64,000 nucleotides of DNA, taken from Planctomycetaceae bacterium. GTDB lineage: Bacteria; Planctomycetota; Planctomycetia; Planctomycetales; Planctomycetaceae. The notes under the pieces are model-generated. The model was not told the DNA's origin, did not search any database, and worked only from the letters and a program-made list of their open reading frames with translations. Shown in pieces: positions 22,117-61,631 of this stretch. Made by a program: the position numbers and the translations under genes. The stretch is taken from assembly GCA_024742875.1 (NCBI GenBank), contig JANSXP010000008.1, positions 124,001 to 188,000 of the forward strand, written 5' to 3'. How positions within the stretch are numbered: the stretch's first letter is position 1; each line of letters starts with the position of its first letter.

Positions 22117-22785
22117 CTATCCCTTGAAGCCACCCTGGGAACGAATCTGATCGAGAGGATTGCCGGTGGGAGCCGGTTTGGCTTTTTCTTCTGCCACCGG
22201 TGTCTCGTTTTCCGCGGGCGCCTCGTCTGCCGCGGGCGCTGCGTCCGCTTCCGCTGCACCGCCGGCAGCCTGGGCTCGGATGGCATCCAGTGGTGAGCCA
22301 CCTGCGGGTGCAGCCGGTTTCGCTGCGGCTCCGGCTCCACCGGCGCGAATCGCGTCCAGCGGAGAGCCGCCTGCTGCGGCCGCACCTGCTGCGCCACCAA
22401 CGCGGATGGCGTCCAGTGGAGAACCACCTGTGGCAGCTGGTTTCGCCGGTGCTGCCGCTCCGCCAGCCCGGATCGCGTCCAGCGGAGAACCGCCGCCAGC
22501 GGCCGCCGCCTTTTTCGGTGCGGCCTGCGCCGCTTTGGCTTTGGCTGGTTCTTCTTTTTTCTTCGGTCGTGGACCGTCAACGATTGTCAGAAACTGTGGA
22601 TCGATGTCGTACCACGAAATGTCTTCAACGTCATCAAACTCCACGAGCGCCCGACAGTTCATATTGACTGTTTTGACCTTACCGGTGAGCTCCGCAAATC
22701 GCCGCAGTTCGGGAACATCTTCCGCCACGACAACCCACTTGTCGGTCAGTTCGACCTTCAGCTTTTCCGCTTGTGTAATTGACAT
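22117..22785 (-). CDS. SH3-like small protein with five SPLDxIR repeats, unknown function
   Basis: From ATG 22785 (M13 of the longest frame) the protein is 222 residues. Residues 1-70 look like a compact beta domain (LTDKWVVVAEDVPELRRFAEL, VKTVNMNCRALVEFDDVEDI), possibly an SH3-like barrel. A basic linker (KKKEEPAKAKAAQ) follows, then an Ala/Gly/Pro-rich tail with GGSPLDAIRAGG-type units at residues 98-109, 120-131, 139-150 and 162-173, and a last variant, NPLDQIRSQGG, at 208-219. The same unit occurs five times in the Rieske protein at 54140. There is no signal peptide, so it is probably cytoplasmic. Function unknown; the tail suggests multivalent binding. Confidence 0.85.
   Translation of the reverse strand: MSITQAEKLKVELTDKWVVVAEDVPELRRFAELTGKVKTVNMNCRALVEFDDVEDISWYDIDPQFLTIVDGPRPKKKEEPAKAKAAQAAPKKAAAAGGGSPLDAIRAGGAAAPAKPAATGGSPLDAIRVGGAAGAAAAGGSPLDAIRAGGAGAAAKPAAPAGGSPLDAIRAQAAGGAAEADAAPAADEAPAENETPVAEEKAKPAPTGNPLDQIRSQGGFKG
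22129..22494 (-). repeat. Coding repeat, SPLDAIR units x5
   Basis: Five copies of a 36-bp unit coding for [G]GSPLDAIRAGG separated by Ala/Lys/Pro codons. The copies differ in third-codon positions, so they are maintained at protein level and are not a recent exact duplication. Confidence 0.85.
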
Positions 22786-24799: not shown

Positions 24800-25102
24800 C
24801 TAAGCAGGGTTGGCGCAGTTGCCGTCGGTTTCTGCCATGGATGTCTTCTGCTCGGTGATCACCGGCCACTGAGGAGCCATTTCCGCGTTCAGTGCGGTGT
24901 AGCCGGCCCACTGCTCAGGCACGTTGTCCTCGTGGAAGATAGCTTCGACGGGACATTCCGGGACGCACGCTTCGCAGTCGATGCATTCTTCGGGATGAAT
25001 CACGAGAATCGACTCGCCTTCGTAGAAGCACTCCACAGGGCAGACGACTACGCAGTCAGTGTATTTGCAATTGAAGCATGGCTCAGCAACAACGTGAGTC
25101 AT
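24800..25102 (-). CDS. fdxA: 7Fe ferredoxin ([3Fe-4S][4Fe-4S], FdxA type)
   Basis: A 100-residue ferredoxin. The N-terminal cluster segment [18 protein letters not shown] is typical of 7Fe ferredoxins that carry one [3Fe-4S] and one [4Fe-4S] cluster, and the second motif [16 protein letters not shown] completes the sites. The C-terminal extension ([20 protein letters not shown]) is the FdxA tail. It is a small cytosolic electron carrier. ATG 25102 is preceded by GGAAAGGT. It is monocistronic; upstream about 500 bp are non-coding. Confidence 0.95.
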
Positions 25103-50201: not shown

Positions 50202-50357
50202 AACAAGTCGCAGGAATGCGTGTCAGCGGACACATTGCGCTCTGGCGGAAACGATCACGGAAAACGATCATCTGCATGGTCATTCGAATCGCTCAGTCAG
50301 CGTCGTCCACAACGTCATTCACCCGCTTCGTTCACCTCGCCTGTCGGACCGCCATCC

Positions 50358-51668
50358 ATGATTCAGCCCAACCCCGAATCCCCGGTTAACTATCTGCCTG
50401 AGATCGACAACTCTTACGACGTGATCGTTGTCGGCGGAGGTCCGGCGGGATCCTCAACGGCCGCACTGGTCGCTGAGCATGGACACAGCACGCTGCTGCT
50501 CGAACGAGCTGAACTGCCGCGATTTCACGTGGGTGAGTCGCTCATTCCGGAAACCTACTGGCCTCTCAAACGACTGGGCCTGATCGACCGCCTGAAGGAA
50601 TCGGCCTTCCCGCGCAAGTACAGCGTGCAGTTTGTCAGCGAAGGCGTGAAGGAATCCGCTCCCTTCTACTTCGACATGTACAACCCTCACGAAAGCAGCG
50701 TCACATGGCAGGTCGAGCGTGGCAAGTTTGATCAGATGGTGATGGACCGGGCTCGTGAACTGGGCGCCGTAGTGCACACATCTGCTCAGGTGACGGACGT
50801 GATTTTTGAAGACGACGTGGCCGTCGGTGTCAAAGTCCGACTGCTGAACGAAGACGGTGGTCGCACAGAGCGTGAGATTCGCTCCAAAGTGGTCGTAGAT
50901 GCCACAGGACAGTCCGCGTTCATCAGCAACCGCCGAGGCCAGCGTGACGCCGATCCGCGCCTCAAAAAGGGCACCATCTGGACTTACTGGAAAGGCGCCC
51001 ACCGTGATCCCGGCAAGGACGAGGGGGCCACGCTCATCATGCAGACACCTGGCAAGAAGTCGTGGTTCTGGTACATCCCGCTGCAGGACGATGTCGTGAG
51101 CGTCGGTTGCACGGGCAGCATGAGTCACATGTTCGGCAAAGAGAACGGTGACGCAGAAACCGTTTATACGCGAGAGCTGGATCTGTGCCCCGCCATGACA
51201 AAGCGACTGGCGAATGCGGAACGCTGCACGGACTACTTCACCACCAAAGACTTCTCGTATTATTCTCGCGAGGGCGCTGGCAATGGCTGGGTGCTTGTGG
51301 GCGATTCTTTCGGCTTCATTGACCCTGTTTACTCCAGCGGTGTTTTTCTGGCCCTCAAAGGCGGCGAGTTTGCCGCAGACGCCATCCACGACGCCCTGCA
51401 GCGATGCGACCTCACCGGCCCTCGCCTCGGCCAGTGGCAGCCTCTCTACAAGCAGGGCATCGAAAACTTCCGTAAACTGGTCTACGCGTTCTATGCAGAA
51501 GACTTCAGCTTCGGTGCCTTCCTGAAAGAGAACCCTCAGTACAAGTCCAACATGGTCGACATTCTTGTGGGTGACGTCTTCAAGCCCGGCGTCGGCGACA
51601 TCTTCGACGCCATGGGCGTTGTGGAACCGGAACTTGACGAGCCACTCAAGCCGGTGATGGCCTCCTGA
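50358..51668 (+). CDS. FAD-dependent halogenase-like oxidoreductase
   Basis: From ATG 50358 the protein is 436 residues. The FAD site is YDVIVVGGGPAGSSTAALVA (26-31 GGGPAG), followed by LPRFHVGESLIPETYW, DATGQSAFISNR and LVGDSFGFIDPVYSSGVFLALKGGE. The halogenase signature WxWxIP is present as WFWYIP (236-241), and K87 in FPRKYSVQF sits where CndH/CmlS-type halogenases have their conserved Lys. Monooxygenases and geranylgeranyl reductases of the same fold lack WxWxIP. I cannot exclude a non-halogenating variant common in this phylum. The longest frame starts 50220, but its first 46 residues are not protein-like. Partner flavin reductase not found nearby. Confidence 0.85.
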   Translation: MIQPNPESPVNYLPEIDNSYDVIVVGGGPAGSSTAALVAEHGHSTLLLERAELPRFHVGESLIPETYWPLKRLGLIDRLKESAFPRKYSVQFVSEGVKESAPFYFDMYNPHESSVTWQVERGKFDQMVMDRARELGAVVHTSAQVTDVIFEDDVAVGVKVRLLNEDGGRTEREIRSKVVVDATGQSAFISNRRGQRDADPRLKKGTIWTYWKGAHRDPGKDEGATLIMQTPGKKSWFWYIPLQDDVVSVGCTGSMSHMFGKENGDAETVYTRELDLCPAMTKRLANAERCTDYFTTKDFSYYSREGAGNGWVLVGDSFGFIDPVYSSGVFLALKGGEFAADAIHDALQRCDLTGPRLGQWQPLYKQGIENFRKLVYAFYAEDFSFGAFLKENPQYKSNMVDILVGDVFKPGVGDIFDAMGVVEPELDEPLKPVMAS

Positions 51669-51721
51669 CAGGGCCTCGCCAAAACGGCAGGCACCTGCGT
51701 TGTTCAAACAAGAACTCGCTG

Positions 51722-51753
51722 CGGCGACCGGCATTCTGTCTGGTCGCCGTTTT
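51722..51753 (+). terminator. Hairpin terminator after the halogenase-like gene
   Basis: An 8-bp stem CGGCGACC / GGTCGCCG with a 12-nt loop is followed by TTTTCG. It is only 15 bp before the start of the Rieske ferredoxin gene, so it could also attenuate that gene. Confidence 0.75.
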
Positions 51754-51768
51754 CGTTATGCTGTCGCC

Positions 51769-52095
51769 ATGCCCACACCCGTCCCCCTGATAGCTGCCAG
51801 TGAAATTCCGCCCGGCGAGGGCCGCGAAGTGGTCGCGGCGGGACGCATTTTTGCCGTGTTTAATGTCGAAGGCACTTTTGAAGTGCTTGACGGCATCTGC
51901 CCTCACGCGGGTGGGCCTCTCGGCAAAGGAACGCTCAACGGCGGCACGGTCACCTGCCCCTGGCATGGCTGGCAGTTTGACGTGACGTCCGGCCAGCACT
52001 GCCTGAACGACACCCTTTGTCAGCAGCATTTCCCGGCCGAAGTGCGAGACGGACAGGTCACAGTACTGCTCGAGGAAACGCCACCTGCGTCCTGA
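51769..52095 (+). CDS. Rieske-type [2Fe-2S] ferredoxin
   Basis: From ATG 51769 the protein is 108 residues, a stand-alone soluble Rieske domain: FNVEGTFEVLDGICPHAGGPLG (Cys-x-His) and VTCPWHGWQFDVTSGQ (Cys-x2-His) bind the 2Fe-2S cluster. Such proteins pass electrons to dioxygenases, or are the small subunit of nitrite reductases (NirD-like). The longest frame begins at 51700 and includes a terminator hairpin, so the later ATG is preferred. It follows the halogenase-like gene and could be its redox partner, but the hairpin between them weakens that link. Confidence 0.9.
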   Translation: MPTPVPLIAASEIPPGEGREVVAAGRIFAVFNVEGTFEVLDGICPHAGGPLGKGTLNGGTVTCPWHGWQFDVTSGQHCLNDTLCQQHFPAEVRDGQVTVLLEETPPAS

Positions 52096-54139: not shown

Positions 54140-55339
54140 ATGAGCGGCGACAAACCAAGCACAGACGACATCCTCGCCAAGCTGCGTGGCGGTGGTGCAC
54201 CGGCCCCAGAGCAGGCGGACGATTCCGCCGCAGAAGCGTCCGCTGCTGAAGAATCCGCGCCCGCGGAGTCGGCCGCACCAGCTGCTGGCGGATCGCCACT
54301 TGATCAAATTCGCGCTGGTGGTGGCGGCGGAGCGGCCAAACCCGCGGAAGCCAAGCCTGCCGCCAGTGGTTCGCCGCTCGATCAAATTCGTGCCGGTGGT
54401 GGTGGAGCAGCAAAGCCAGCGGCAGCCAAACCCGCCGCTGGTGGTTCGCCCCTGGATCAGATTCGCGCTGGTGGTGCCGGGGCAGCCAAACCGGCTGCCG
54501 GTGGGTCTCCGCTGGATCAAATTCGAGCGGGCGGTGGTGGAGCAGCCAAACCAGCTGCCGGCGGTTCACCTCTAGACCAGATTCGTGGCGGTGGCGCGGC
54601 CAAACCGGCCGCTGCTGCAAAGCCGGCAGTGGCTGCCAAAGCAGCGCCCGTCGACACCGCCAAAGCGTCAGGCATGTCAGCTGCTGAGATGATCGAAGCG
54701 GCCCGCAAGGGCGTCGTCACGGCAGATCCGGCAACTGGTGAGCCCAAAGAAGCGGCACCTAAGAAAGTCGCACTTCCGAAAAAACCGCTGCCAGGCAAAG
54801 CAGCAAAGAAGGCAGCCGAGCAGCCCCGTCGAGATTTCCTGGCACTGCTGCTGGGAATCATCTGCAGCCCGCTGGTTTGGGCATGGGGCTCTCTGGTGGC
54901 TGCGACCGCAGCGTCCAGCCTCGCCATTGCCCGTTTCATGATGCCCAACGTGCTTGTGGAACCACCAACAAAATTCAAAATTGGCCCGCCAACGGATTAC
55001 GGTCCGGGCACGGTCAGCACCAAGTGGAAGGCTCAGTACGGAGTCTGGATCGTCAACGCCGAAGTCGATGGCCAGCCTCTCATCTATGCCTTGTCCACGG
55101 TCTGCACCCATCTGGGATGTACCCCGAACTGGCTGGAAGGCGAACAGAAGTTCAAGTGCCCCTGCCATGGTTCAGGTTTCTATAAGACCGGCGTGAACTT
55201 CGAAGGTCCCGCCCCCCGACCACTGGAACGTCACGGCATCCGACTGGCAGAAGACGGCATGCTGGAAGTGGACAAGAGCATCAAGTTCCAGAAAGAGCTT
55301 GGTCAGTGGGAAAACGCGTCGTCCTTTGTCTCTGTCTGA
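54140..55339 (+). CDS. Rieske iron-sulfur subunit of a bc-type complex with repeat-bearing N-terminus
   Basis: A 399-residue protein. The C-terminal half is a normal respiratory Rieske protein: one transmembrane helix (FLALLLGIICSPLVWAWGSL, about 232-255) and the cluster ligands CTHLGC (322-327) and CPCHGSGF (340-347), including the disulfide Cys pair. The N-terminal 225 residues are unusual: an initial helix (STDDILAKLRGGG), then GGSPLDQIRAGG units at residues 50-61, 76-87, 101-112, 121-132 and 141-152 in an Ala/Gly/Lys/Pro linker, and a last segment (SAAEMIEAARKG). That arm should be cytoplasmic. First gene of the complex operon; ATG 54140. Confidence 0.95.
   Translation: MSGDKPSTDDILAKLRGGGAPAPEQADDSAAEASAAEESAPAESAAPAAGGSPLDQIRAGGGGGAAKPAEAKPAASGSPLDQIRAGGGGAAKPAAAKPAAGGSPLDQIRAGGAGAAKPAAGGSPLDQIRAGGGGAAKPAAGGSPLDQIRGGGAAKPAAAAKPAVAAKAAPVDTAKASGMSAAEMIEAARKGVVTADPATGEPKEAAPKKVALPKKPLPGKAAKKAAEQPRRDFLALLLGIICSPLVWAWGSLVAATAASSLAIARFMMPNVLVEPPTKFKIGPPTDYGPGTVSTKWKAQYGVWIVNAEVDGQPLIYALSTVCTHLGCTPNWLEGEQKFKCPCHGSGFYKTGVNFEGPAPRPLERHGIRLAEDGMLEVDKSIKFQKELGQWENASSFVSV
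54287..54595 (+). repeat. Coding repeat, SPLDQIR units x5
   Basis: Five units coding for [GS]GSPLDQIR[AG]GG, spaced 20-26 residues apart, with synonymous differences between copies. The same peptide unit (with A for Q) is coded at 22129-22494. Confidence 0.9.
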
Positions 55340-55398: not shown

Positions 55399-56172
55399 GT
55401 GTCCGTAGGCGAATACATTCGTAACTCGCAGATCTGGAAGAGTATCTTCCGGCACCCCGCGCCGACAGATCGTCGAAACCGCGTCGTGGTGATGCTGACC
55501 AACTTCTTCCTGCACCTGCACCCGGTGTCCATCAAGCAACAGGGAATCGCGCTGTCCTACACATGGTGTATGGGCGGCATTACGTTCTTCCTGTTCCTGG
55601 TGGAAGCACTGACGGGCGTACTGCTGATGTTCTATTACCGTCCCACACTGGAGTGGGCGTTCTACGACATTCAGGCACTGCGAGACGTTCAGACACTGGG
55701 AATCATGCGTGAGATTCACCGCTGGGGTGCACACGCAATGGTGATTACCGTGTGGCTCCATATGTACCGCGTGTTCCTGACAGGCAGTTACAAACCACCG
55801 CGAGAATTTAACTGGGTGGTGGGCGTCCTTTTGCTTGTGCTGACGCTCCTGCTGTCTTTTACCGGATACCTCCTGCCATGGGACCAACTTGCGATCTGGG
55901 CGATCACCGTAGGGTCCAACATGGCCCGCGCCCATCCTTTCCTCGGTGGCGAAGGGCCCGGTTTTCAGATTTTGAACATGGGTGGCTACGACCTGATCAC
56001 CAATGCCAGTGACGCGAAGTTTCTGCTGCTGGGTGGACGGTTTGTGGGCGAAGCGACGCTGAACCGGTTCTATATCCTCCATTGTGTGGCTATTCCGATC
56101 GTTGTCGCGGGACTCATCGCCATTCACTTTTGGCGTGTCCGCAAAGATGGTGGCATCAGCCAGCCTCTGTAG
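55399..56172 (+). CDS. cytochrome b, N-terminal (b6-like) subunit
   Basis: A 257-residue protein with four transmembrane helices that match the haem-carrying half of cytochrome b: GGITFFLFLVEALTGVLLMFYYRP, REIHRWGAHAMVITVWLHMYRVFLTGSY, GVLLLVLTLLLSFTGYLLPWDQ and FYILHCVAIPIVVAGLIAIHFWRVRKDG. The His pairs in helices B and D (HRWGAH..., HMYR; HCVAIP, HFWR) bind the two b haems. As in b6f complexes, the C-terminal helices are on a separate gene, the next one. GTG 55399 begins 59 bp after the Rieske stop with AAGGAAGC upstream. Confidence 0.95.
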   Translation: MSVGEYIRNSQIWKSIFRHPAPTDRRNRVVVMLTNFFLHLHPVSIKQQGIALSYTWCMGGITFFLFLVEALTGVLLMFYYRPTLEWAFYDIQALRDVQTLGIMREIHRWGAHAMVITVWLHMYRVFLTGSYKPPREFNWVVGVLLLVLTLLLSFTGYLLPWDQLAIWAITVGSNMARAHPFLGGEGPGFQILNMGGYDLITNASDAKFLLLGGRFVGEATLNRFYILHCVAIPIVVAGLIAIHFWRVRKDGGISQPL

Positions 56173-56251
56173 GCTGTTCTGTGCTTCGACTGTTCGTCGG
56201 CCGTTGTCGACGATGAACCTCACGTGATCCTTAACTGATTCGGTTCACTCG

Positions 56252-57625
56252 ATGAATCCCCATCCTGATTTAACGTCCAGCGTCCTGCACGGCCTTGGCT
56301 GGTTCTACCTCATCCTGTTCGTGATGAACTTGTGGTGGACGGCCCGCAGCTACAAGCTGGATGGCGAGTTTTCCAAAGACACTCCCATTCTGGGCGGCGT
56401 ACCTGTGGCCACCATCTGGGCCGTCCTGTCAGCCATCCTGCTGATGGTTTCAGCCGCTCATTTTACCGGCACCAGCAGCCCGGATACGTTCCTGATTCGA
56501 CTCCCGGAGTGGTTCAAGAACCCGGTCGATGCCTTCTTTGCTGATCCCAAGATCTATTTCGCGGGCTCTCTGGTCCTGTTCTGGGCCATGATTCAATTCC
56601 GTGAATGGTGGATCAAAGACACCGTCGCCTGGTCACTTCTGCAGGGATCTTTGATCTTCCTCGCCCTGTCCATGAGTGACTACGACTTCCGCCAGATCGT
56701 CGGCAAGCCGGACAATGTTCCCATTGTCGCCATGTTGTTCATCGTCAGCTTCCTGACATGGATCTACTTCCGCCGTGCGTGCGACAACGACCGCCGCATC
56801 GAAGAGGGTCGGCCGCTGTTTGAGCAGGAGAACAACGAGAAAGTGCTCGTCTGGCCTGACCTGGTTTACACAGAGCTGATCTGCATGGTGCTTCTGACCG
56901 TTGTGCTCGTGTTCTGGGGCATCGCGTTGAAAGCTCCTCTGGAAGAACCCGCCTCCTCGGTGAAGACCCCCAACCCTTCGAAAGCTCCCTGGTACTTCCT
57001 GGGACTGCAGGAAATGCTGGTCTATTTCGACCCATGGCTGGCCGGAGTGGTGCTGCCGGGCATTATTCTTGGTGGCCTGATGGCGATTCCTTACATCGAC
57101 TTCAACAAGACGGGCAACGGTTACTACGTGTTTAAAGAACGAGCCTTCGCCGTCACGACATTCCTGTTTGGCTTCTTCCCATTGTGGATCGCTCTGATCG
57201 TTCTGGGAACGTTTCTGCGAGGCCCGAACTGGAACTTCTACGGAATCTATGAGGTCTGGGACGTGCACAAGGTCGAAGCGGCCAACAACGTCAACCTCTC
57301 GGAATTCTTCTGGGGCTTCCCCGGAATCAGCGCCATTTATGGCGGCATGCCCAAGGGAGATGCTTTCCTCGGTAGTCCCGTCGCCACCATGCTGCTGCGG
57401 GAATCCCCGGGCATCGTGTTGATCTTTCTGTACTTCGCCGTACTGCCACCGATTCTCGGTCTGACAGTGCTCCGTAAGTACTTTGTGAAAATGGGGATCT
57501 TCCGTTTCCTCGTATTCTCCAATCTCGCACTGTGGATGGCCGTCTTGCCAATCAAGATGGTTCTCCGCTGGGCGTTTTCGTTGAAGTACATCGTGGGTAT
57601 CCCCGAGTGGTTCTTTAACATTTAG
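56252..57625 (+). CDS. cytochrome b C-terminal (subunit IV-like) subunit, long form
   Basis: A 457-residue polytopic protein, far longer than plant subunit IV (about 160). Its central part, NPSKAPWYFLGLQEMLVYFDPWLAGVVLPG, is the subunit IV quinol-site segment with APWY in place of the usual PEWY motif. The N-terminal 200 residues add about five helices (LHGLGWFYLILFVMNLWWTAR, FAGSLVLFWAMIQFREWW) not found in classical subunit IV; the C-terminus adds more (GIVLIFLYFAVLPPILGLTVL). It pairs with the b6-like protein upstream to build the quinol oxidation site. The replaced motif may alter quinol specificity or midpoint potential. Confidence 0.9.
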   Translation: MNPHPDLTSSVLHGLGWFYLILFVMNLWWTARSYKLDGEFSKDTPILGGVPVATIWAVLSAILLMVSAAHFTGTSSPDTFLIRLPEWFKNPVDAFFADPKIYFAGSLVLFWAMIQFREWWIKDTVAWSLLQGSLIFLALSMSDYDFRQIVGKPDNVPIVAMLFIVSFLTWIYFRRACDNDRRIEEGRPLFEQENNEKVLVWPDLVYTELICMVLLTVVLVFWGIALKAPLEEPASSVKTPNPSKAPWYFLGLQEMLVYFDPWLAGVVLPGIILGGLMAIPYIDFNKTGNGYYVFKERAFAVTTFLFGFFPLWIALIVLGTFLRGPNWNFYGIYEVWDVHKVEAANNVNLSEFFWGFPGISAIYGGMPKGDAFLGSPVATMLLRESPGIVLIFLYFAVLPPILGLTVLRKYFVKMGIFRFLVFSNLALWMAVLPIKMVLRWAFSLKYIVGIPEWFFNI

Positions 57626-57722: not shown

Positions 57723-60700
57723 ATGCCGGCAACTGAACAATATTTCTGGAACCAGAAAAAGCTGCACAAAGTCTTCGCGGGCACTTGTGTGGCGTTGCTC
57801 GTGGCTGTGATCTGGACCATGGTCCAGGACTACTCAGACCCATGGCGCTCTTACCAATCCACCAACTTCGAGCTTCAAGCGAAGAAGAAAGAGCGTGACA
57901 TCGCTCAGATGAAGACGTGGGAGTACGAGACTCGCATGGAAGAACTCACGACCGAAAGGCGAGAGATCTCCACGGCGATGAAAGAGCTGAGCGACATTGA
58001 CGCCAAGGTGGCTAAGCAGCTTGATATGGCCACTCGCAAGTTCGACGCTCTGGCGTTGAAACTCAAAAGCCAGAATGCGTTGCGTGACGAGGCCCGAGCG
58101 GGATACGACCTCGCCATTCGTGACACGCTGCCACAGGATGTGCTTGCCAAACGCTTCGCAGGCTTCGAGGCAGCGCAGACGGCAGCCGACGAGATTCAGC
58201 TGGAACTGGAAGCTGCACAGCGAGAACTGGACGATGTGGGCATGCCAAAAGGGCTCGACCCAGACGGTGAGCCACTTTACACAGCTGAGGAAGCGACACT
58301 CGTCGTCAAACTGGCTGATGTGCAGGCGCGTGCCGCTGAAAACAAAAAGCAGATGGACAAGCTGGAAGCGGACATCAAGCTGGCAGAGGATGCGCTGGAC
58401 GACATTGCTCCGGAAGGCACCTGGAAGAAAGTGAAGCGAAAAATCATGGAGGCACCGATCATTGATGGCTTCAATGGTCACCTGAAGGTCACTCAGGACT
58501 GGCTTCCAGATCTGCACCAGACACTGGGCATGACAGAAATTGCTCGTTTTGACCGCTGTCGAACGTGCCACATGAACATGGATCGCACGGCGCCTGGCAA
58601 CAAGCCTGCTTTCCCTCACGGCATCGCCAGCGAGAACAACGTCGATACGTGGGTCAAAGAGAACAAGTTTCCACACCCCTACACGACCCATCCAAATCAC
58701 GAACTGTTTGTGACGGCATCCAGTCCGCACCCCGTGTCCAAATTTGGCTGTACGGTGTGCCACGACGGTCAGGGCTCGGGCACAACATTCGGAAATGCGG
58801 AACACACACCCAACGATCCGAATCAGGCGCACCAGTGGGAAGAGGAATTCGGTTACCACCCCAATCATTTCTGGGAGTACCCGATGCAGCCGGACCGCTT
58901 CCAGGAATCCACCTGCATCAAATGTCACCATGACGTTGTTGAGCTGGGCATCAATCCCCAATTTGGAGCGTCAGCTCCCAAGGCTTACAAGGGCTTCACG
59001 CTGATCCAAAAGTACGGCTGCTTTGGCTGCCACGAGATCCATGGGTATGACGGTGGTGATGCAATCGGCCCCGACATGCGTCTTGAACCGCAGACAGAAG
59101 GCCAGATGGCCCGCGTGGAAGCGGACCCCGCTCAGCACGCTGGTAAGTACCGCAAAGTGGGCCCGGCCCTGCGGCACATCGCTGCCAAAACCTCCGCCGG
59201 CTTTATCTACGACTGGACGCAGGAACCCAAGCGTTTCCGTCCCAGCACAAAGATGCCGCAGTTCTTTAACCTGCGAAGTCACTTGAACAAAGAGCAGGGC
59301 GATGAAACCGACGGCTACGAGGAAGTTGAGCTGGCAGGTCTGACCTCGGTACTGCTGAACGGGTCAGAGGATATCGATTTGCTCCAGCCGGCCGCAGATT
59401 ACGTCGCCAACGCCGAGCGAGGCAAGCAGTTGTTCACAGAGCGAGGCTGTCTCGCCTGTCACCAGCACGATGCCACTCCCGGCTCAACGGCCGATTTTGG
59501 TCCTGATATCAGCAAGATTCATCAGAAGGTGAATCGCAATGCAGACAACGCAGAGTTCAGCGACTGGCTGTACACGTGGGTCAAGGAGCCCACACGCTAC
59601 CACGCACGAACTCGCATGCCTCACCTGTATCTCGATCCCTACACAGTGGGCGAAGAGACCATCGACCCCGCCGCAGACATCACGGCCTTCCTGCTGGCTC
59701 AGGGAGAACCCGGTGAGTTTATGCAGGCTGATCCCTCCAGCTTCGAGCTTTCCAAGCTGGATGAGCTGGTCACTCTGTACCTGAAGAAGGCTCGCTACAG
59801 CGAAAAAGCTGTGGAAGCCATTCTGAGCAGTAAGAAATTCCCCGCTTTGGCGGAAGACCTGGCGGGCGATGAACGCGTGCTGGCTACGGCCAACGGCGAT
59901 GCGGTTGAGAGTGACGAGGACTGGAAGCAGCGAAAGCTGGAGTACATCGGTCGCCGATCGGTGTCGCGTTACGGCTGTTACGGCTGCCATGACATCCCCG
60001 GATATGAAGACTCTCGTCCGATCGGTGTTGCTCTTCAGGACTGGGGTCGTAAAGACACCAGCAAGCTGGGCATCGAGCACATTGAAGAATTCCTGCACCA
60101 TCATGGGGAACCTGATGGATCATCCACCATGGATCGCGTCGAGGACGCAATGGCAATGGCGAAGGATGGCACCTACGGTGAAGAAGAAGTCGCTCCAGAG
60201 CTGACGCAAGCCTACTTCTACGACAGTCTGATCCACCACGGTCGACCGGGATTCATCTGGCAGAAACTTCGTGATCCACGCAGCTACGACTACGAGAAGA
60301 CGGATACCAAAGGCTACGACGAACGCCTGCGAATGCCTAAGTTCCCACTGAAAGAAGACGAAGTGGAAGCAATCGCCACCTTCGTTCTGGGTCTGGTCGC
60401 TGAGCCTCCCGCTGAGCAGTACATCTATCAGCCGGACGTGCGTGAGAAGACCCGCATCGATGGTGAGTTCCTGCTGGCGAAGTACAACTGCACCGGCTGC
60501 CACATGATCGAACTCCCGAAGGTCACGTACGGAGTCGATATCGAGGAGGACGTGCTCCCGACACAGCTCTCCCCAGCTGACTACGAAAACGCCCGCGATC
60601 TGCTGCTGAAGTTCCGCAAACCGAAGAACGCGTTGACGGGCGAGAAACGGACCTTCCTCGTGGATGGAGAGGAAATGGAACTTCCATTAGCCTCATTCCA

Positions 60701-61631
60701 CGGCATCCGCATGGTCCTGCCGGATCCTGAGGAAGAAGACCCGGAATATCGTGAGTCTGGTTTTGACACATGGGAGACCCTCGACTTCGGCAGTGAGGAA
60801 GACGCGCCGCGAGTTCTGCCAAGTTCTCGAATCACAATTACTGACACCAAGATGGTGGACTATCAGCCGTCACGGGGCGGAGCTTACGCCGAGATGCTGG
60901 TCGACTATCTGACCGAAAACGTCACCGGCGGAAACCGCAATCTGGCATGGCAGGCTTCACCGCCTCCGCTGTACCAGGAAGGCTTCAAAGTACAGACACC
61001 GTGGCTCTACCAGTTCCTGCTGGAGCCAGAAAAACTGCGCTACACCACAGTGCTGCGGATGCCGAGATTCACGCTTTCTGACGAAGAAGCGAGGGCTCTG
61101 GCCAATTACTTTGCTGCCGTCGACGGGGCTGCCTTCCCCTATCAGGAAGTGCTTCCGACAGACGGCGACTACGTCGCCGAAAAGACACAGCAGTTGGAAA
61201 CTGAAGGGCTGCTGACACAAAACGAGGACTACCTGAGTGAGTGCTGGAAGACCATCAATGGGCCTTTGTGCATCAAGTGTCATTCCGTGGGCGCCCGTAA
61301 GTTCAAAGCCTCCGATCCCAAAAAGGACATTCAGGGGCCGAACCTGAATCGAGTCGAAAGACGACTTCGATCTGACTGGGTGAAGCTCTGGATCTACAAG
61401 CCGACTTGGATCACGCCTTACACGTCGATGCCTGTCAACTTCCCGAAGAACAACACGACTCAGTTCCCTGATCTGTTCAAGGGTGACCCGGAGGCGCAGG
61501 TCGGTGCGGTCCGTGACGGTCTGTTCAACTACTCCAAACTACTGGAAGACGTTGGTCCCACGGTCTACGCTCCACCAGTCGCAACACCAGACGCCGCGGC
61601 TGACACAACAGCTGCCGGAGCGGAGGAATAG
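57723..61631 (+). CDS. membrane-anchored octahaem cytochrome c, 1,302 aa
   Basis: A very large subunit. One N-terminal anchor (KVFAGTCVALLVAVIWTMVQ) is followed by a charged coiled coil of about 200 residues (ERDIAQMKTWEYETRMEELT...) and eight CxxCH haem sites starting at residues 279 (CRTCH), 343 (CTVCH), 398 (CIKCH), 433 (CFGCH), 576 (CLACH), 752 (CYGCH), 923 (CTGCH) and 1183 (CIKCH). Several cytochrome c folds repeat (GCFGCHEI..., distal Met in TKMPQF, TRMPHL, LRMPKF, LRMPRF). It replaces cytochrome c1/f as electron acceptor of the Rieske protein. Located in the periplasm, fixed at the membrane. Third partner of the complex; 97 bp after the cytochrome b gene. Confidence 0.95.
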   Translation: MPATEQYFWNQKKLHKVFAGTCVALLVAVIWTMVQDYSDPWRSYQSTNFELQAKKKERDIAQMKTWEYETRMEELTTERREISTAMKELSDIDAKVAKQLDMATRKFDALALKLKSQNALRDEARAGYDLAIRDTLPQDVLAKRFAGFEAAQTAADEIQLELEAAQRELDDVGMPKGLDPDGEPLYTAEEATLVVKLADVQARAAENKKQMDKLEADIKLAEDALDDIAPEGTWKKVKRKIMEAPIIDGFNGHLKVTQDWLPDLHQTLGMTEIARFDRCRTCHMNMDRTAPGNKPAFPHGIASENNVDTWVKENKFPHPYTTHPNHELFVTASSPHPVSKFGCTVCHDGQGSGTTFGNAEHTPNDPNQAHQWEEEFGYHPNHFWEYPMQPDRFQESTCIKCHHDVVELGINPQFGASAPKAYKGFTLIQKYGCFGCHEIHGYDGGDAIGPDMRLEPQTEGQMARVEADPAQHAGKYRKVGPALRHIAAKTSAGFIYDWTQEPKRFRPSTKMPQFFNLRSHLNKEQGDETDGYEEVELAGLTSVLLNGSEDIDLLQPAADYVANAERGKQLFTERGCLACHQHDATPGSTADFGPDISKIHQKVNRNADNAEFSDWLYTWVKEPTRYHARTRMPHLYLDPYTVGEETIDPAADITAFLLAQGEPGEFMQADPSSFELSKLDELVTLYLKKARYSEKAVEAILSSKKFPALAEDLAGDERVLATANGDAVESDEDWKQRKLEYIGRRSVSRYGCYGCHDIPGYEDSRPIGVALQDWGRKDTSKLGIEHIEEFLHHHGEPDGSSTMDRVEDAMAMAKDGTYGEEEVAPELTQAYFYDSLIHHGRPGFIWQKLRDPRSYDYEKTDTKGYDERLRMPKFPLKEDEVEAIATFVLGLVAEPPAEQYIYQPDVREKTRIDGEFLLAKYNCTGCHMIELPKVTYGVDIEEDVLPTQLSPADYENARDLLLKFRKPKNALTGEKRTFLVDGEEMELPLASFHGIRMVLPDPEEEDPEYRESGFDTWETLDFGSEEDAPRVLPSSRITITDTKMVDYQPSRGGAYAEMLVDYLTENVTGGNRNLAWQASPPPLYQEGFKVQTPWLYQFLLEPEKLRYTTVLRMPRFTLSDEEARALANYFAAVDGAAFPYQEVLPTDGDYVAEKTQQLETEGLLTQNEDYLSECWKTINGPLCIKCHSVGARKFKASDPKKDIQGPNLNRVERRLRSDWVKLWIYKPTWITPYTSMPVNFPKNNTTQFPDLFKGDPEAQVGAVRDGLFNYSKLLEDVGPTVYAPPVATPDAAADTTAAGAEE

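Follow-up and report, generated by a model that had tools for sequence, protein, structure and literature searches.

The Rieske protein encoded in a 64,000-nucleotide stretch of a Planctomycetaceae genome (the window, by which we mean that whole stretch) carries seven copies of a seven-residue motif on a long N-terminal arm. The motif recurs in several copies on the tail of a small protein, A (22117..22785, reverse strand), on a paralogue of A (B), and in many relatives within a large loop of a membrane protein (C); its version changes together on the Rieske arm and the A tail across genomes. The carriers have little else in common, and the spelling of their multicopy motif tends to change together; the simplest reading is a single co-evolving binding site. 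We give about an even chance to the units being a multivalent docking code, in which one site on a common cytoplasmic hub would read Rieske, A, B and C.

The Rieske protein and its arm

The Rieske gene (54140..55339, forward strand) encodes 399 residues, matches Pfam PF00355 (34.3 bits, cut-off 20.3) and contains both cluster-binding boxes, read in the sequence as CTHLGC and CPCHGSGF. The best NCBIfam models are of the PetC type, with the equivalog cut-offs missed (PetC 61.6 versus 250, Rieske_proteo 55.5 versus 97.4), and by these profile scores the protein is b6f-like and no equivalog. As would be expected next to a Rieske gene of a bc or b6f complex, a split cytochrome b adjoins it (55399-57625), with a b6-like N-terminal half (PF00033) at 55399..56172 and a subunit IV-like C-terminal half (PF00032, 21.7 versus a cut-off of 20.7) at 56252..57625; a large cytochrome c protein (57723..61631) belongs to the same gene run, and all of these lie on the forward strand. 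By eye, a second, small Rieske-type ferredoxin-like ORF is present at 51700-52095 (forward strand), behind an ORF resembling an FAD-dependent enzyme (50220-51668).

Instead of the short N-terminus of a classical Rieske protein there is an arm of about 229 residues upstream of a twin-arginine pair (R230, R231; 54827..54832, forward strand) that is invariant across 46 aligned orthologues, followed by a transmembrane helix at residues 244-267. Rieske proteins are anchored in the membrane with the N-terminus inside, so the arm, with the twin-arginine pair and the helix downstream of it, should by topology face the cytoplasm, as the initial annotation had proposed.

Seven units are recognized on this arm by pattern, all on the forward strand. 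Five read SPLDQIR, with 21-nucleotide cores at 54293..54313, 54371..54391, 54446..54466, 54506..54526 and 54566..54586, which confirms the claim of five such units (54293-54586) ahead of the Tat and membrane anchor. The longer form GGSPLDQIRAGG is not exact in all five, since unit 2 is SGSPLDQIRAGG and unit 5 is GGSPLDQIRGGG. The start (STDDILAKLR) and end (SAAEMIEAAR) of the arm, suspected in the initial annotation of being diverged relatives of the unit, both fit the same motif pattern: the first unit is DILAKLR (residues 10-16, 54167..54187) and the last EMIEAAR (residues 183-189, 54686..54706). AF2 places these two in helices (residues 8-16, pLDDT about 66, and residues 181-189), and the five SPLDQIR units in none (pLDDT blocks of 42-53).

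Core-pattern matches in the arm number six, against a mean of 0.07 in shuffled arms. Comparing the five SPLDQIR units codon by codon gives 70 pairs, 43 of them with a synonymous difference and none with a residue change; this restriction to synonymous differences points to selection on the peptide, and not to fresh DNA duplication. Searching the genome (8.18 Mb) with a DNA pattern for approximately xPLDxIR gave 14 matches (five for a control pattern), 12 of which fall in just three proteins (five in Rieske, four in A and three in B). SPLDQIR is the window lineage's spelling of a seven-residue motif of the approximate form [DES][IPM]Lxx[AI]R.

Arms and other carriers across the phylum

All comparisons were made within the phylum, where class and family are groups of the genome collection and relatives with names carry labels such as Planctomycetaceae and Pirellulales. 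An orthologous Rieske protein was found at high score in 17 of 24 genomes of the window's family (a tally from 39 genomes searched). We read 129 Rieske frames with 116 distinct arms, a class-biased, non-random sample of loci found via Rieske-domain searches from armed relatives. As many as 109 of the 116 distinct N-termini are at least 130 residues long and hold 2-6 pattern matches (at least three in 107), and most long arms hold 3-6, against 0.1-0.3 in shuffles. The remaining seven are shorter: in two the contig ends within the frame, and the other five (L027, L028, L030, L226, L250) are genuinely short and carry no unit. A frequent unit form across relatives is [D/E/S]-I/M-L-A-A-A/I-R; the middle units read DILASIK in close relatives and DILAAAR in others, and the letters SPLDQIR are absent from the Rieske arm of close relatives. 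Linkers are rich in Ala, Pro, Gly and Lys and look arbitrary. The initial annotation had proposed to test whether arm and repeat number vary among relatives while the motif stays, and the arms read bear this out, with 2-6 pattern matches and the motif kept in most relatives; far from lacking the units or replacing them with arbitrary sequence, these relatives keep DILASIK or DILAAAR versions between arbitrary linkers. In a 46-sequence alignment the first unit keeps I11, L12 and R16, but these sequences were chosen from 106 frames by a pattern requiring a first-type unit, so that this conservation is partly built in.

Against the general retention of units, a minority of in-class Rieske proteins has no arm at all (at least seven: G026, G028, G032, G242, G282, L226, L250). 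In this phylum the arm looks like a plug-in site. Out of class, 20 of 117 Rieske proteins were read, mostly chosen for long frames, and none has three or more pattern matches; L361 instead holds a different module in two copies, repeats of DLIITSKISGQKMSW, and three others have a single chance-like match. By eye, a ferredoxin-like cysteine segment (CIVCDACE..., later Cys-Pro) takes the place of the unit array at six out-of-class loci (L366-L371), and the arm of L360 has two CPSCG/CPACG zinc-ribbon-like modules.

Protein A consists of a head and a disordered tail with five units on the reverse strand: four SPLDAIR (22468..22488, 22402..22422, 22345..22365 and 22276..22296) and a last NPLDQIR (22141..22161) directly before the C-terminus (SQGGFKG). 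The claim that Rieske and this small protein have their units in common therefore holds for the kind of motif and fails for its exact letters. The four SPLDAIR units differ synonymously in 22 of 42 codon pairs, again with no residue change. The AF2 model of the head (residues 1-70) has a pLDDT of 84-97 by block, and its structure matches reach Z 7.9 against KOW domains, NdhS and PsaE, all tied and below 8; PetP, at Z 6.9 (rmsd 3.2, 66 aligned residues), is likewise tied with KOW domains. The fold class of the modelled head is thus likely SH3-like, and such ties below 8 show no closer relation. Sequence searches of Pfam, NCBIfam and PDB gave no accepted relative of A, and PetP no sequence match. 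In the tail, AF2 predicts helices at four of the five units (unit-region block pLDDT 52-70). The tail units follow lineage: the genus spells them SPLDxIR, most of the family SPLELAR and other families DILAAAR, and in G316 both types stand in one tail. At the C-terminus EILALARQQGPFKG and SPLELARxQGxFKG interchange among relatives, so two spellings occupy one slot. One tail (G021) comes from a contig piece (L118) that lacks the head and was assigned to A by its C-terminus. Comparing the genes around A at six loci gave no hint, with LarC near A only in the window and G011. In the window a ferredoxin gene (DUF3470, Fer4; 24803-25102, reverse strand) lies roughly 2 kb from A; none was seen next to A at the remaining loci of this comparison.

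Searched against 393 genomes of the phylum, the Rieske profile had matches in 164 and the profile of the A head in 75. Of the 47 in-class genomes with this Rieske, all but G033 (46) also have A; none of the 117 out-of-class genomes with a Rieske match does. Reading all 47 in-class Rieske N-termini gave 43 armed and four unarmed (G028, G032, G242, G282). In each of the 42 genomes with an armed Rieske and A, the A tail holds one unit or more; where the Rieske is unarmed, the A tail has one unit in two genomes and none in the other two. A without this Rieske occurs in 29 genomes, 19 with at least one tail unit and ten (family f3) without a unit-bearing tail; in f3, f4 and f6 the A head comes without a tail, and no arrays were seen there. 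Family f2 (G033, G037) has an armed Rieske and no detectable A, and no convincing second array carrier was found in its two genomes. Both this Rieske and A are absent in 11 family genomes (genus g31, G144).

B (L008:88-1926, reverse strand; 612 residues) has the head of A, SPLD/NPLD units and, at the C-terminus, a helix-hairpin-helix region; proteins similar to B were read in G003, G004 and G005. A search with a SPLELAR array found arrays also in B and in the membrane protein C, within the large loop of the latter, together with an in-class match (G033:C132, E 0.0087) that is apparently neither A, B nor C. Pfam hints for C are Ferric_reduct and cytochrome b561, both below cut-off. C is present in 48 of 170 family genomes and not in the window's own. 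At least three pattern matches were counted at 21 of 35 C-type loci, two of these (L451, L452) chance-like only, with several loops cut by locus ends; by eye, the L451 loop has TPLEIMR-type repeats that the pattern missed. The five short homologues (L146-L150) have none or two chance-like matches. The gene run of C in G017 includes a cyclic-nucleotide/4Fe-4S protein and three multihaem cytochromes c. An array-bearing C likewise stands beside a cyclic-nucleotide/4Fe-4S protein and multihaem cytochromes c in L159, L160 and L161 (domains searched in L160 only). A search of the 393 genomes with a DILAAAR array matched 36, of which 23 are in class, with every match in Rieske or A by coordinates, and 13 out of class, with weak matches only (E 0.002-0.01); this search missed known arrays, those of the window's own genome included, and further carriers may exist.

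Joint change of the motif version

Joint change was measured in 53 genomes with both Rieske and A as the share of units with I, L, V, M or F at position 6, a measure chosen after the sequences were seen. Between Rieske arm and A tail the Spearman correlation is 0.76 over the 53 genomes and 0.65 over 38 genus groups, with some false units (e.g. SPVSDAK, EAMKSGK, DKIRAAK, SAMADSK) kept in the counts. The position-6 class (Ile-like or Ala) is concordant in 47 of the 53 and discordant in six (G017, G168, G382, G253, G375, G379). Independent contrasts, on trees from single FastTree runs with midpoint rooting, gave r 0.61 (p 1e-6), the sign agreeing in 22 of the 26 contrasts that were informative; when the A-head tree was used, r was 0.52 (16 of 22). 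Within the family the two values were 0.68 (21 of 23) and 0.58 (15 of 18). The largest of 404 residue-column tests in the Rieske and A domains was 0.48, below the motif correlation. By majority of units, C and A agree in all five genomes compared (G013, G017, G019, G296, G382), a comparison that leaves out C of G300, G337, G361 and G405. We rejected GC content as the cause of the change between Ile and Ala, as the partial correlation on GC is still 0.61.

What may read the units

We hypothesize that the units act as short docking helices in an otherwise disordered chain, where the weak contacts of several copies would add up. The same site of a common cytoplasmic hub would read the Rieske arm, the A tail, the B tail and, in many relatives, the C loop, and the hub would gather redox membrane complexes and A into one assembly on the cytoplasmic side; the head of A, whose fold is as close to KOW domains as to NdhS, PsaE and PetP, may serve electron-transfer complexes. 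Both the single site reading all carriers and the clustering as its outcome are inferred from purifying selection on the units within a gene, their conservation across species, the small set of carriers found and the joint change of the motif version. Against the docking code stand the failure to find a reader, an A head whose best column follows the motif class no better than a Rieske control (0.45 against 0.48), the f2 arms without A, the 19 A tails with units in genomes without this Rieske, the armless in-class Rieske proteins, the SPLDQIR units without an AF2 helix and the six of 53 genomes discordant at position 6. The initial annotation had suggested that one cytoplasmic partner could gather Rieske and A, perhaps clustering bc complexes. 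A shared partner gains indirect support from the co-variation of the motif versions and from the cytochrome b-like membrane protein C as a further type of carrier; a single bc-centred one sits poorly with the 19 genomes and with f2.

The single-carrier genomes (f2 with Rieske only, the 19 with A units and no such Rieske) would be accounted for if the units bound each other, pairing as short helices with the acidic cap against the terminal Arg into a network with no separate reader. Several copies per chain and the joint change of what would be a packing position also fit such pairing. Seven residues are short for self-association, however, and the near-constant R/K with an acidic or Ser cap resembles a pocket ligand, so we hold this to be unlikely. 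The reader might also be A itself: SH3-like folds often bind peptides, A has a conserved head that accompanies this Rieske within the class (46 of 47), and binding in cis and trans could polymerize A head to tail and recruit Rieske and C. The lack of any head column beyond the control and the presence of f2 arms without A make the head less likely as reader; heads also occur without tails in the array-free families f3, f4 and f6, as far as their arrays were read, and AF2 gives the unit regions of A a block pLDDT of only 52-70, which leaves this in our estimate decidedly improbable.

That the arm is mainly a spacer or an element of Tat biogenesis, its units binding only general chaperones or the membrane, is suggested by the twin-arginine pair and membrane segment right after it and by the Ala/Pro/Lys-rich linkers. 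In the sequence read, A and B show no such segment for export and yet carry the same units; arrays are lacking from out-of-class arms of comparable length (0 of 20 read with at least three pattern matches), and the Rieske units change jointly with A, so we regard this as very unlikely. Low-complexity tails are common, and Ala/Pro-rich tails in these genomes might simply drift into similar repeats, as the 13 out-of-class genomes with weak array matches could suggest. The excess of matches over shuffles in most long arms, purifying selection on the units, their presence on the same few proteins across many families, and the finding that none of the armed relatives read has its units replaced by arbitrary residues together make coincidence extremely improbable.

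A broader proposal, which we put forward tentatively and at somewhat less than an even chance, is that a hub or a self-assembling network reads this class-specific helix motif and thereby organizes electron transport into an assembly at the cytoplasmic face. Such a respiratory-organizing code would mark the bc complex, a second system of haem b and multihaem cytochromes, and an SH3-fold protein resembling PetP or NdhS, with its motif dialect (Ala or Ile type) co-evolving in each lineage. In our judgement the arrangement of respiratory complexes in bacterial membranes is poorly explained, and the arrays offer a concrete candidate peptide code on two unrelated redox membrane proteins and one soluble protein. 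The natural variants (Ala and Ile dialects, single-carrier genomes and carrier-free genomes) make the question of a shared reader directly testable. Literature searches, judged by titles, turned up nothing pointing to such an array, and a search on the motif letters had no match.

The closest working model for these planctomycete arrays, by analogy only, is the Chlamydomonas pyrenoid. There (PMC10473226) a Rubisco-binding motif on the linker EPYC1 and on the membrane proteins RBMP1/2 is held to build the assembly, and its reader is the Rubisco small subunit; as here, a short multicopy motif sits on a repeat protein and also on membrane proteins. The motif and the organisms differ, however, and the membrane carriers here are redox proteins and the reader is only postulated. 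PetP (PMC9342900) is an SH3-fold peripheral subunit on the cytoplasmic face of the cyanobacterial cytochrome b6f complex and, with NdhS and PsaE, one of the small subunits of electron-transfer complexes; the A head may share the fold of all three, its match to PetP being tied with those to KOW domains. In contrast to PetP, A has a unit-bearing tail and no sequence match to it, and occurs also without this Rieske. In the alphaproteobacterial polar hub PopZ, a short N-terminal stretch binds clients (PMC5182065). Here, unlike in PopZ, arrays sit on several proteins. The letters of that stretch presumably resemble the DILASIK form; a Pfam scan at E up to 10, in which very weak matches may be filtered, gave no DUF2497 (PopZ) match in Rieske or A. 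In work on clustering and localization of the Escherichia coli nitrate reductase, the position of a respiratory complex reportedly matters for respiration, and the likeness to the present case is one of topic, the localization of a respiratory complex.
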